NCBI RefSeq assembly: GCF_000016065.1
Contig: NC_009092.1
Coordinates: forward strand, 1,488,001-1,552,000
Source of the DNA: Shewanella loihica PV-4
Lineage (GTDB): Bacteria; Pseudomonadota; Gammaproteobacteria; Enterobacterales; Shewanellaceae
Reading direction: 5' to 3'
DNA: 64,000 bases
Shown: positions 25,868-30,208 of the stretch, one piece after another
How positions within the stretch are numbered: the first letter of the stretch is position 1
How the letters are laid out: each line of letters opens with the position of its first letter
Program-made: the position numbers and the translations under genes
The notes under the pieces: model-generated
The model's input: the letters and a program-made list of their open reading frames with translations, nothing else
What the model was told of the DNA's origin: nothing
Database searches by the model: none

Positions 25868-25909
25868 TTAGGCGCCATTTATATTTACTAAGTTAAGGAT
25901 TCATAAATA

Positions 25910-26731
25910 GTGACAGGAAAATTACCAGCCTTATATATGAAGCAAGCTGTTGACCAGATGAGAATGTCTGAGGGAAAAGGACCGAAGGTTGGTGCGGTTA
26001 TAGTTACAAAAGGTCACCAAGTTATAGCTGGACATAAGAAAAATGGCACTCATGCAGAACGAGCTGCAATTGAAGAGGCTCAAGAGAAAAAAATTGATTT
26101 ACGTGGCGCGACTTTATATTCAACTCTAGAACCTTGTGTGTCAGTTGGCTCAAAAAAGGAAGCTTGTTCAGATCTAATATCACGAGTTGGTATTAAGACT
26201 GTATATATTGGTCGATATGACCCTAATCCAAATATTCAACGCCTTGGTTGGAAGAAACTTAGAGATGAAGGTATCTCGCTGCATGACTTTGATATTGAGT
26301 TTAGAAACGAAATTGATGAAATAAATCAAACTTTCATGGAGCACTTTGTCTCAGGCACTGGTCCTACAGGTGGTGCGAGATTCGATTATCAATTAAATGG
26401 AGGGGAGTTTGAAATTCAGTTCTCTGAGGATGATGAAAGAAGTATTATCACTCAGTGGACCAATCGGGGAAAAGATTCCATCTACGCTTATGCAGTAAAG
26501 CCTGTTGAGGTTGCAATTGCACGATATGCTACCGAGTTTTCTGAAATAGATGATCCTTTAGCTTATGACTTTACATACACCGTTCCTGTTAGTGTTGGCG
26601 AGATCGCAATTTTTGTATCTAATGACGGCGCAGTGTTGGTAAAGGTTCTAGAGGTAGAGTCTGATCCTGCAAAGACAACGTCGCAAAAGTACGTAAAAAT
26701 TAAATATGAAGTTCGACCGAAGAGCGCCTAA
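25910..26731 (+). CDS. RibD-like zinc deaminase with unknown C-terminal domain (cassette 1)
   Basis: Residues 1-135 form a cytidine-deaminase-fold domain. His48-Ala-Glu50 (THAERAAIEEA) and Pro-Cys76-x9-Cys86 (EPCVSVGSKKEAC) supply the zinc site and proton shuttle. The Cys spacing and the following YIGRYDPNPNIQRLGWKKLR resemble the RibD deaminase rather than TadA or CDA. The last ~130 residues are a beta-rich domain (FDYQLNGGEFEIQF onward) that I do not recognise. It starts at GTG 25910, and its stop TAA is part of the attC R'' box. RibD function is unlikely because no reductase domain or riboflavin genes are present. A nucleotide- or base-modifying defence role is possible. Confidence 0.8.
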   Translation: MTGKLPALYMKQAVDQMRMSEGKGPKVGAVIVTKGHQVIAGHKKNGTHAERAAIEEAQEKKIDLRGATLYSTLEPCVSVGSKKEACSDLISRVGIKTVYIGRYDPNPNIQRLGWKKLRDEGISLHDFDIEFRNEIDEINQTFMEHFVSGTGPTGGARFDYQLNGGEFEIQFSEDDERSIITQWTNRGKDSIYAYAVKPVEVAIARYATEFSEIDDPLAYDFTYTVPVSVGEIAIFVSNDGAVLVKVLEVESDPAKTTSQKYVKIKYEVRPKSA

Positions 26732-26830
26732 CAAGCGCCTGCAATCTGACCTCCGGTCACTGTCACCTTTTGTGCAAAAAGCCGCACAAAAGTCGCCAGT
26801 AGCCTCCGGCAGTTGAGGCGGGCGTTAGCT
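26726..26830 (+). repeat. attC recombination site 1 (end of cassette 1)
   Basis: The R'' box GCCTAAC (26726-26732) and R' box GTTAGCT (26824-26830) frame 105 bp. L'' GCGCCTGCAA pairs with TTGAGGC near 26813, leaving one unpaired G (26741), the extrahelical base typical of attC. The inner stem CTTTTGTGC/GCACAAAAG forms the variable terminal structure. Its ends, TAACAAGCGCCT and GGCGGGCGTTAG, are very close to Vibrio-type repeats. Confidence 0.9.
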
Positions 26831-26847
26831 TTCCATGCAGGAATAAG

Positions 26848-28023
26848 ATGAAATCATCAACTCTGAACACTTTAATGGTAGCCAAGTCTATTTATGGTGA
26901 AACTAAATACTTAGTCAATTCAGGTGATAAGCATGCCTGCACTGCAGGAATAATTCTTTTACAAGACTTCGTTGAGCTAGTTGTGTTGGCGGCTTTGGAC
27001 GAATTAGATGTTGATGAACAGAAAGCGTTAGAATCGAAATCTTTCGATGAGCTGCTCGGGGAACTAAAAAAGCAGAAAGTTCCAATCATAAAGTCTGGCA
27101 CTATTAAAGCACTGAACAAGCAAAGGGTAATTTCTAAACATTATGGGCAACTAGCGGAGCCTGCTTCAGTTGTAAATTATTTTAATGTAGCAATAGCTTT
27201 TGTAGATGCACTGTTAAAGCATGTTGTTGGTTCCAATTTAAGCGAAATATTTCTTACTGATATCCTGAAGGACGGAGAAGCTAAGGATTTAATTAAGGAG
27301 TCTATATCCCTATCGGAGCAAAAAAATTACCTTGATGCTCTTATTGGTTTGAGAAAAGCATTTTTCACTTCATATGAATATCAATACTGTGTTTATGCTT
27401 TTCGGGATACAGACGAGAATGAAAGAGGGTTGATGGGCTTTCTTGGTCTGGGATTTTCGGGAGGAATGAAAGCACACTATTGGACTCGGAGCAAACAATG
27501 GATTGATAAGAATGTAATAAAACCCATTGATTACATTCAAATTAACCATGAACAATTAAAGACCGATTGTATGGAGCTAGGTGTTAGCACCGTAGATATT
27601 GAGAACTTTCGACGACTAACTCCTGAAGTTGTAAGAACTGAGAAAGATCAGTGGCATTGTGAGTACTCAAGCACTTTTGTTGCTAACGAGCTCAATATCG
27701 AGAATTTCAATTATTGCTTGGATTTACTAATTGACTTTTTGCTTAAAAAACAAGAGATGGATTCAAGTAGAAGGTACCCTAAACGAGAGAATTCAATACC
27801 AGCACCGCCTATTTACGTAGATAAGCCTGTTTTTAGAAAACCATCTCTAGCCTCCGAACAAGTCGGTATGGTTCAAGAGAATTATTACTATAACGTAGAG
27901 AGCATAGTTTCTGGTTTCGATCCTTCCGAAAAATATCTCTATGTACATTTATACCCACAAGAAGAGAAATTTCTTTCTACTGAAGGACACTTATGGGGTT
28001 ACTTACTCATAGAAGAAAGCTAA
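26848..28023 (+). CDS. HEPN-like domain protein (cassette 2)
   Basis: This is a 391-residue soluble protein not assigned to a named family. The first ~135 residues are predicted all-helical with LLQDFVELVVLAALDEL and then LNKQRVISKHYGQ. Arg93-x4-His98 fits the R-x4-6-H motif of HEPN ribonuclease-fold domains and is followed by the usual helix (VVNYFNVAIAFVDALL). A middle helical part (150-310) is unassigned. The last ~50 residues (QVGMVQENYYYNVESI onward) look like a small beta barrel or SH3-like domain. AGGA lies 5 bp before the ATG. It is the sole gene of its cassette, with its stop inside the attC R'' box. RNase activity is inference only. Confidence 0.7.
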   Translation: MKSSTLNTLMVAKSIYGETKYLVNSGDKHACTAGIILLQDFVELVVLAALDELDVDEQKALESKSFDELLGELKKQKVPIIKSGTIKALNKQRVISKHYGQLAEPASVVNYFNVAIAFVDALLKHVVGSNLSEIFLTDILKDGEAKDLIKESISLSEQKNYLDALIGLRKAFFTSYEYQYCVYAFRDTDENERGLMGFLGLGFSGGMKAHYWTRSKQWIDKNVIKPIDYIQINHEQLKTDCMELGVSTVDIENFRRLTPEVVRTEKDQWHCEYSSTFVANELNIENFNYCLDLLIDFLLKKQEMDSSRRYPKRENSIPAPPIYVDKPVFRKPSLASEQVGMVQENYYYNVESIVSGFDPSEKYLYVHLYPQEEKFLSTEGHLWGYLLIEES

Positions 28024-29382: not shown

Positions 29383-29621
29383 CAACTGACTGTGGTGTTC
29401 AATCAATATGTTTGTCCGTTTTTTACGCACCACAGCTCCTCGCTTTTAAGCATGGTATTCAAGATCACGATGAGCTTTCGCATGCAGGCGATCAGTGCTA
29501 CTTTCGGCACTTTGCCAGCCGCTTTGAGACGCTGGTAATAGCGCTTAAAAACAGGATTACTGTCTAATAGGTTGTATGGGTATACGGCCTGTACTGTATG
29601 CCGTAAACTAAGCCGTTAGCT
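29377..29621 (+). repeat. attC recombination site 3, interrupted (end of cassette 3)
   Basis: R'' GGCTAAC (29377-29383) and R' GTTAGCT (29615-29621) are 245 bp apart, far longer than the other sites. The extra length is mostly the remnant transposase at 29403-29567. The right part (29570-29612) holds a palindromic piece around TATACGGCctgtactgtatGCCGTA that probably belonged to the original attC stem. Confidence 0.75.
29403..29567 (-). pseudogene. remnant of IS110/IS1111-family transposase (C-terminal end)
   Basis: Read on the minus strand this gives [20 protein letters not shown], then [20 protein letters not shown] and a TGA stop. This is the conserved C-terminus of IS110-family transposases ([27 protein letters not shown]). 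Only about 55 codons remain; the catalytic DEDD domain and the element's left part are gone. Its place inside an attC site fits the IS1111-attC group, which is known to insert into cassette recombination sites. Confidence 0.8.
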
Positions 29622-29653
29622 GTAATATCTAAGCTTTTTAAAGGATTAAATTT

Positions 29654-30133
29654 TTGACTGATGTCTCGTTTAAAAAAGTAAATTCAGTGGGTCAATATAT
29701 TGTATTTTTGCTGTGTTTATTGTGTTGCTTACCTTTTTATTTTTTTCATGAAAACATTCCACCGAATCTCATAGGTAAAGTTATTGTTATCACTCTCTGG
29801 CTTCCGATTATGTTTATTTGGCTATGTTACAGAATTTACAGGATCTATAGCGATCCAAGCTTTGTTGTTTTGAAGCTTGATGCGAATAGCGTTGAGATTG
29901 ATGGTGTTAGTCACGGCGTTGAACGCCTTAAATACCTCAATGTTGTCTTTGAAAATGACCATTTTAAACTGGAATGGGAGCTACGAAGCGCCAAACAAAT
30001 TTGGCAAGCTCAAATCATGAGCACTCGCGCGCACTATGTTACCGACGCCCCTTTAAGTGAAATCAAGAGTTTGACCGAATCTTCTAACAAACTGTCTTAC
30101 TTCGATAATTCGAGTAAGCTGCAATACAGCTAA
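29654..30133 (+). CDS. Small two-span membrane protein, unknown (cassette 4)
   Basis: This 159-residue protein has two membrane spans close to the N-terminus (YIVFLLCLLCCLPFYFF near 15-31 and VIVITLWLPIMFIWLCY near 43-60). A cytoplasmic or periplasmic beta-type domain follows (FVVLKLDANSVEIDG, resembling a PH-like or DUF strand pattern). The start is TTG 29654 with AAGGA at 29640-29644; the ATG 7 bp later is out of frame. No family is recognised. It forms the last cassette, and its stop overlaps the R'' box at 30128-30134. Confidence 0.65.
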   Translation: MTDVSFKKVNSVGQYIVFLLCLLCCLPFYFFHENIPPNLIGKVIVITLWLPIMFIWLCYRIYRIYSDPSFVVLKLDANSVEIDGVSHGVERLKYLNVVFENDHFKLEWELRSAKQIWQAQIMSTRAHYVTDAPLSEIKSLTESSNKLSYFDNSSKLQYS

Positions 30134-30208
30134 CAAACGCATTAGATTGTTTGCTTAGACAGTCCTAGGGTACCAAAAGTCGCCAAATCGAAGAGACGAT
30201 AGATACTG

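Follow-up and report, generated by a model that had tools for sequence, protein, structure and literature searches.

An integron cassette array at one of ten orphan attI platforms of Shewanella loihica PV-4, probably served by an integrase acting in trans

The usual picture of an integron has a single integrase with a single attI next to it. Clusters of attC sites lacking an integron integrase (CALINs) have been reported, together with single attC sites, from 59 Shewanella genomes, of which 26 lack intI, in a paper whose mentions of attI are silent on attI heading CALINs (PMC9229058). An attI-headed CALIN has already been published for one Shewanella prophage, where a 28-mer named the Shewanella-type attI heads one complete integron and one CALIN (PMC9892861); the section on that prophage is without chromosomal dispersal, shared positions, conserved ends or turnover. 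It is the one direct precedent, and with no report of a dispersed attI network found in open-licence literature, such a network appears to be unreported. Two further arrangements recall the locus described here in the sections of PMC12901181 that treat them: attG cassette insertion into genomes (Loot et al. 2024, cited therein) likewise places cassettes outside an integron, the receiver here being a conserved 146-bp attI, and delta-attI-type cassettes likewise carry attI away from intI, although their attI forms the end of a cassette in mobile integrons, whereas the one here opens an array at fixed chromosomal positions. The present study concerns a cluster of four gene units within a window of 64,000 nucleotides of S. 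loihica PV-4 (NC_009092.1, positions 1,488,001 to 1,552,000), which we consider likely to be an array of integron cassettes attached to an orphan attI platform, one of ten in the genome, and served by an integrase (IntI) in trans. Bare coordinates are window positions, and G and L numbers are working labels of genomes and loci of the genus, G000 being S. loihica PV-4 itself.

The cluster resembles a CALIN in having two or more closely spaced attC sites, attC1 and attC2, with no integrase nearby, and it differs in being headed by a conserved attI platform that is present in about ten copies. A preliminary description of the window had called it a CALIN, which is right insofar as integron cassettes are arrayed here with no integrase; the array is not headless, however, the platform directly upstream having been missed. 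Among the components of a complete integron, intI is lacking and an attI, as identified by its sequence, stands at the array head. Integrons of the SonIntIA type have this 146-bp core as their attI: at the intI-bearing loci that contain it, with identity of up to 98%, intI is close by, its start codon roughly 150 bp away in G074 and its profile match roughly 160-170 bp away in the others. The likeness to the sedentary chromosomal SonIntIA-type integron extends to the position of a LexA-type box, whereas the window platform has no intI, its left 245 bp gave no BLAST match to the fetched intI loci, and it occupies one of many sites instead of a single one. In a search of 129 genomes of the genus, a block whose end coincides with the first G^TT recurred at many unrelated places; 45 matches (39 distinct places) stopped at G^TT or within about 10 bases of it, with mostly different DNA beyond. 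Over 104 orphan copies, the attI core had a mean column conservation of 0.909, against 0.635 for the left part and 0.449 past the crossover. A reading of the platform as a cassette with G^TT as its left boundary was rejected, its left end being TGCCCC instead.

Downstream of the platform, the 9-bp ends of all four units are exact reverse complements, namely GTTAGGCGC (25867/26724), GTTAGCTTT (26824/28016), GTTAGCCGT (28105/29375) and GTTAGCTGT (29615/30126), and each unit has its stop codon in a TAAC box, both as the preliminary description had noted. When the cassette rule was defined as a 9-mer at GTTA being followed, 200-2000 bp downstream, by its exact reverse complement, it held at 4 of the 42 GTTA sites of 24001-31500, all four being the named units, whereas dinucleotide shuffles of the same interval (n = 500) averaged 0.26 such sites and never exceeded 3; over the whole plus strand it held at 6 of 228 sites, the two extra ones at 46708 and 58889. 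The GTTRRRY core proved too strict as a junction test here, since units 2-4 read GTTAGC at their junctions and unit 1 alone passes (1 of 69 plus-strand sites). A covariance model, R1, was built from 23 attC sites, all from other genomes and none from S. loihica PV-4, chosen by a cassette rule demanding paired arms (31 chosen, 8 dropped, of which 2 were miscut and the rest thinned). Since the rule itself demands pairing, counts of paired arms in these sites are circular in part. Over the 64-kb window, R1 recovered attC1 and attC2 and, beyond these, no match at E<=1. Where four attC sites had been proposed, two are thus intact, the third is split by a remnant of an IS110-type (insertion sequence) transposase and the fourth is half missing; a foldable bottom-strand attC with R and L arms is correspondingly present in cassettes 1 and 2, divided in attC3 and absent from unit 4, where the fold is no better than that of shuffles (z -0.25, equalled by 76 of 200). 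The length of attC3, about 245 bp, is due to the remnant within it, which scored 28.6 bits against the NCBIfam IS110-type model, under the cut-off of 140, and gave no match in a Pfam search. The unit 4 gene is absent from G040 but has been retained at this position in G009, G056 and G044, where the DNA upstream of it is different; the unit is best read as a relic, namely an old distal cassette left behind when half of its attC was lost.

Ten attI copies were found in the PV-4 genome (a single contig of 4.6 Mb) at up to three mismatches, against none in the control; copy numbers are from the 28-mer pattern, and the genus search with the 391-bp platform covers at most five places per genome. Attachment sites supported by R1 lie downstream of nine of the ten copies, that is, the window copy and eight of the other nine, with no downstream attC at E<=0.01 for L125. 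Genome-wide, 31 model-supported attC sites were obtained from the 150 of 919 candidates that were scored, and 12 of the 31 lie away from the ten attI copies, e.g., at 3384-3385, 3229-3230 and 865-866 kb of G000:C1. The lack of an integrase that had been proposed for the array extends to the entire genome, in which the best match to the intI profile TIGR02249 reached 80 bits against a cut-off of 265. The array therefore appears to belong to a set of gene landing pads, spread over the genome, that would need to borrow their integrase.

Across the genus, 50 of 129 genomes carried an attI copy, with 232 copies summed, a maximum of 16 in one genome and none in the control, intI-linked copies being counted. 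The 28-mer was found in none of the other 368 genomes of a class-wide sample of 369 (3 of the 368 from the same order), and exact matches in named genomes comprised 65 stretches in Shewanella, Pseudoalteromonas and two Vibrio records. The attI core was matched in 20 plasmid records, including those of Enterobacter, Citrobacter, Escherichia and Moellerella, and three viral contigs (L243, L244, L245) carry the Shewanella-type attI pattern. Among the 26 genomes of the genus with at least three attI copies, 14 had an intI over the cut-off and 12 had no match at E<=1e-40, five of these 12 being assigned by their absence among the 85 genomes listed with a match; several genomes of the genus are drafts, in which intI could lie on a missing piece.

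One of the ten copies in PV-4 marks the old integron locus (L128, G000:C1:3742910), where attI and the intI promoter region are kept (95% over 366 bp to G074) and intI is reduced to a stub of about 22 codons followed by unrelated DNA; the corresponding locus of G040 has the same truncation. In Pseudoalteromonas, the IntI match adjacent to attI covers the N-terminal part only (44-174 residues) at L218, L242, L233 and L187, and loss of intI beside a retained attI may recur outside Shewanella. The stub at L128, together with two broken attC sites out of four and a decayed attI in G056 (L043), where the junction GTT has turned to TTT, would also fit a plain decayed CALIN, in which the array is the leftover of a lost integron that saw no later traffic and its attI a mere remnant. 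We regard this as unlikely, since ten attI copies cannot come from one loss, the cassettes of G000 and G040 differ despite the identical truncation, and the sequence upstream of most orphans is unlike that of intI-linked sites: by single linkage, 92 core copies fell into one class of 64 and an intI-linked class of 10, the remaining 18 being singletons or members of small groups. A CTG-N10-CAG box stands 128-131 bp to the left of the core in 21 of the 26 copies that were counted as intI-linked and no more than 160 bp from it in 48 of the 104 orphans (39 at 119-121 or 129-130 bp, one at 127), against a mean of 1.28 and a maximum of 5 in shuffles that preserve single-base composition only. Because many orphans carry this box and LexA boxes are known upstream of intI (in the relevant section of PMC3108266), the left part of the orphan platforms looks to be a former intI promoter region that has lost its intI.

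Indications of traffic after integrase loss come from platforms at shared positions. Seven PV-4 platforms have their upstream flank in common with a platform in G040, G056 or G009, and the old integron locus has its flank in common with the locus in G040. Comparison of 14 platform pairs revealed that mostly the DNA adjacent to attI differs and the right flank is common, with attI retained in 13 of the 14 and decayed in L043; in L049/L142 and L093/L110 the downstream DNA was too short to judge (1633 and 717 bp). In L123/L048 (G000/G040) the first cassette differs and similarity returns at TTAACTGCCC, with attC sites following in both, and in L126/L136 (also G000/G040) it returns at GTTAGAG, the gene beginning ten bases on being retained, although R1 found no attC for that gene. 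In G040, G056 and G009, each of the eight orthologous platforms whose attI is undecayed had attC sites supported by R1 (L047, L048, L135, L136, L137, L139, L140, L146), as did the old locus of G040; L043 and L042 had none. Between the old loci of G000 and G040 the cassette regions have no BLAST similarity, though the flanks are common. Related species thus do differ at the level of single cassettes at orthologous platforms, a kind of variation that the preliminary description had proposed to look for among strains. Because G000 and G040 carry the same intI stub yet differ in cassettes, cassette exchange seems to have continued after the resident integrase was lost, and IntI supplied in trans is the simplest and most likely cause.

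The main rival holds that cassette turnover reflects homologous recombination of whole platforms between strains, IntI being active in intI-bearing donors only. It is favored by the similarity of orthologous flanks, about 74-97% identical and above 90% for G000/G040, and by the existence of intI-bearing species with platforms; on the other hand, L123/L048 and L126/L136 break at the junction TT with the following units and flanks kept, and several platforms differ simultaneously. On balance, we think it improbable, albeit less so than simple decay of a lost integron. Under the preferred reading, docking at orphan platforms with IntI in trans, an IntI of the SonIntIA type would be supplied by, e.g., a plasmid, prophage or donor strain, cassettes would enter at G25867^T25868, transcription of cassette 1 would start within the platform, and the attI-distal end would decay and become fixed, as in unit 4. 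A promoter scan of 25300-26000, bearing both on a Pc promoter that would drive the cassettes and on their description as promoterless in the preliminary account, gave 1 site against 1.7 expected, i.e., no better than chance. What can be read directly from the sequence is the presence of attC1 and attC2, the identity of the attI, the lack of an intI over the cut-off, the ten copies, their orthologous positions and the differences that start at attI.

Several observations weigh against this reading. No trans-acting IntI was observed for G000, recombination of whole platforms with intI-bearing strains could yield the same pattern, and 79 of the 129 genomes have no attI platform. The attI copies themselves are not uniformly intact, with ATT in place of GTT at L129 of PV-4 in addition to the decay at L043, and the base before the junction TT is G in L123 and A, not G, in L048. 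The break falls at the junction TT in two pairs only, being elsewhere blurred by repeats or not clean; L052 and L152 have array DNA in common (a duplicated gene), and the first piece of one member of L053/L143 is found farther down in the other. Three of the 26 copies counted as intI-linked (L034, L035, L055) match only another tyrosine recombinase at 30% identity. Finally, 21 pairs of like genes occur downstream of attI copies, 15 of them at platforms with unlike flanks; five of these 15 are possible cassettes (e.g., L110/L132 at 99%), and the others comprise two that are one gene counted twice, seven of an IS91-like element and one reverse-transcriptase-like gene, the last two names having been given by inspection. 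An IS91-like element of this kind, with a tyrosine recombinase gene, begins exactly at the attI GTT in L055, L034, L035, L095 and L068.

The platform ends suggest a movable unit. The left terminus TGCCCC was present at 93 of 136 copies under a loose test, and 32 of the 78 copies followed by at least 4.5 kb of sequence had a conserved right segment, which was weak in a few and, in the clear cases, lay directly after an attC-like GTTA; the right segment was not found for the window platform. A TTTTGYCCCAAA-like motif occurs at both platform ends as a direct repeat. To the left of the window platform and in tandem with it stands an extra HNH unit that has similar ends and is absent from the orthologous G040 site; L048 likewise has two consecutive left termini. 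At the L041 place, where G000 has a platform, both ends are kept in G040 (L171, C1:1519000-1523500) around other genes and without attI. We sought a clean empty site at the L134 place, where G056 lacks both platform and repeat, without a visible target duplication, and where other DNA of about 8 kb stands in G000; neither such a site nor a target duplication turned up among the places examined. A repetitive extragenic palindrome (REP)-like repeat was considered as a possible mobile part: it flanks many platforms, but its GTCTCTTCGATTTGGC 16-mer has 35 copies in the PV-4 genome (at most one mismatch).

Tentatively, and with slightly more doubt than confidence, we propose that the platforms form a mobile class of their own, satellite integrons, which would consist of a conserved left end, what remains of an intI promoter together with its LexA-type box, attI and often the right segment and TTTTGYCCCAAA-like repeats, carry no integrase or transposase, occupy many chromosomal sites and plasmids, and borrow passing IntI. 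In an Enterobacter IncC plasmid (L037, NZ_AP019818.1, 4820-8569), an attI platform lies between a trio of tyrosine recombinases and a cassette with fosG, a fosfomycin-resistance gene. That the trio stands directly left of this platform might suggest that platforms belong to trio elements and not to integrons, a reading we find highly implausible: the large recombinase occurs in 4 of 129 genomes of the genus, two at 27-28% identity, and near platforms it was seen in L037 only among the loci examined. With such rarity, the trio was ruled out as the driver of the platforms.

Table 1. Features of the attI platform, the cassette array and their surroundings (window positions)
Feature	Position	Strand	Remarks
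REP-like hairpin repeat with GTCTCTTCGATTTGGC (24713-24728)	24543..24784	+	similar repeats left of several other platforms
Extra HNH unit (open reading frame, ORF, 24845-25342)	24773..25476	+	between platform-type left termini TTTGCCCCGAA (24773) and TATGCCCCAAA (25475)
Orphan attI platform	25477..25867	+	conserved block ending at first G^TT
Platform left part	25477..25721	+	starts at conserved terminus TGCCCC; common to orphan copies at unrelated places
LexA-type box CTG-N10-CAG	25592..25607	+	130 bp left of attI core; local conservation peak in 104 orphan copies
attI core, 146 bp	25722..25867	+	crossover between G25867 and T25868
Shewanella-type attI 28-mer AAACGCGCATGCGCACTAATAAAATGTT	25842-25869	+	same 28-mer in the prophage section of PMC9892861
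Cassette 1	25868..26824	+	ORF 25910-26731, 273 amino acids (aa)
attC1, intact	26726..26830	+	R1 44.9 bits, E 8.7e-8; bottom-strand fold z -3.96
Cassette 2	26825..28105	+	ORF 26848-28023, 391 aa
attC2, intact	28018..28111	+	R1 42.6 bits, E 2.8e-7; bottom-strand fold z -2.66, equalled by 2/200 shuffles
Cassette 3	28106..29615	+	ORF 28150-29382, 410 aa
attC3, interrupted	29375..29621	+	no R1 match; IS110-type remnant inside
IS110-type transposase C-terminal remnant in attC3	~29427-29561	-	PHROG E 2e-9; NCBIfam E 7e-7
Unit 4	29616..30134	+	ORF 29654-30133, 159 aa
attC4 remnant, R'' side only	30126..30230	+	without R' partner; no R1 match; no hairpin
REP-like repeat, inverted orientation, right side (30182-30197)	30182..30300	-	same 16-mer repeat as left side

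The cassette 1 protein has a RibD/dCMP-type deaminase domain at residues ~9-147 and a remainder without a family, the cassette 2 protein matches PHROG 37995, of unknown function, at E 2e-7 and has one relative (36%) on a Rhizobium plasmid, and no family was identified for the cassette 3 protein (best PHROG E 0.02). The link to phage defence that had been put forward for such clusters found no support here: in PADLOC, the deaminase domain of cassette 1 partially matched a dCTPase model at 28.6 bits, cassette 2 reached E = 0.03 and cassettes 3 and 4 had no match, and the NCBIfam antiphage deaminase model scored 19.6 bits, under its cut-off of 400.

Ten attI copies without an integrase would separate the docking of cassettes from the carrying of the enzyme. 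If so, many first-position sites coexist in one genome, and a strain can reshuffle them once a compatible IntI enters. Such platforms offer a cause for many of the CALINs and single attC sites of Shewanella, and the same attI is found on enterobacterial plasmids, in one plasmid record examined (L037) beside a fosfomycin-resistance cassette.

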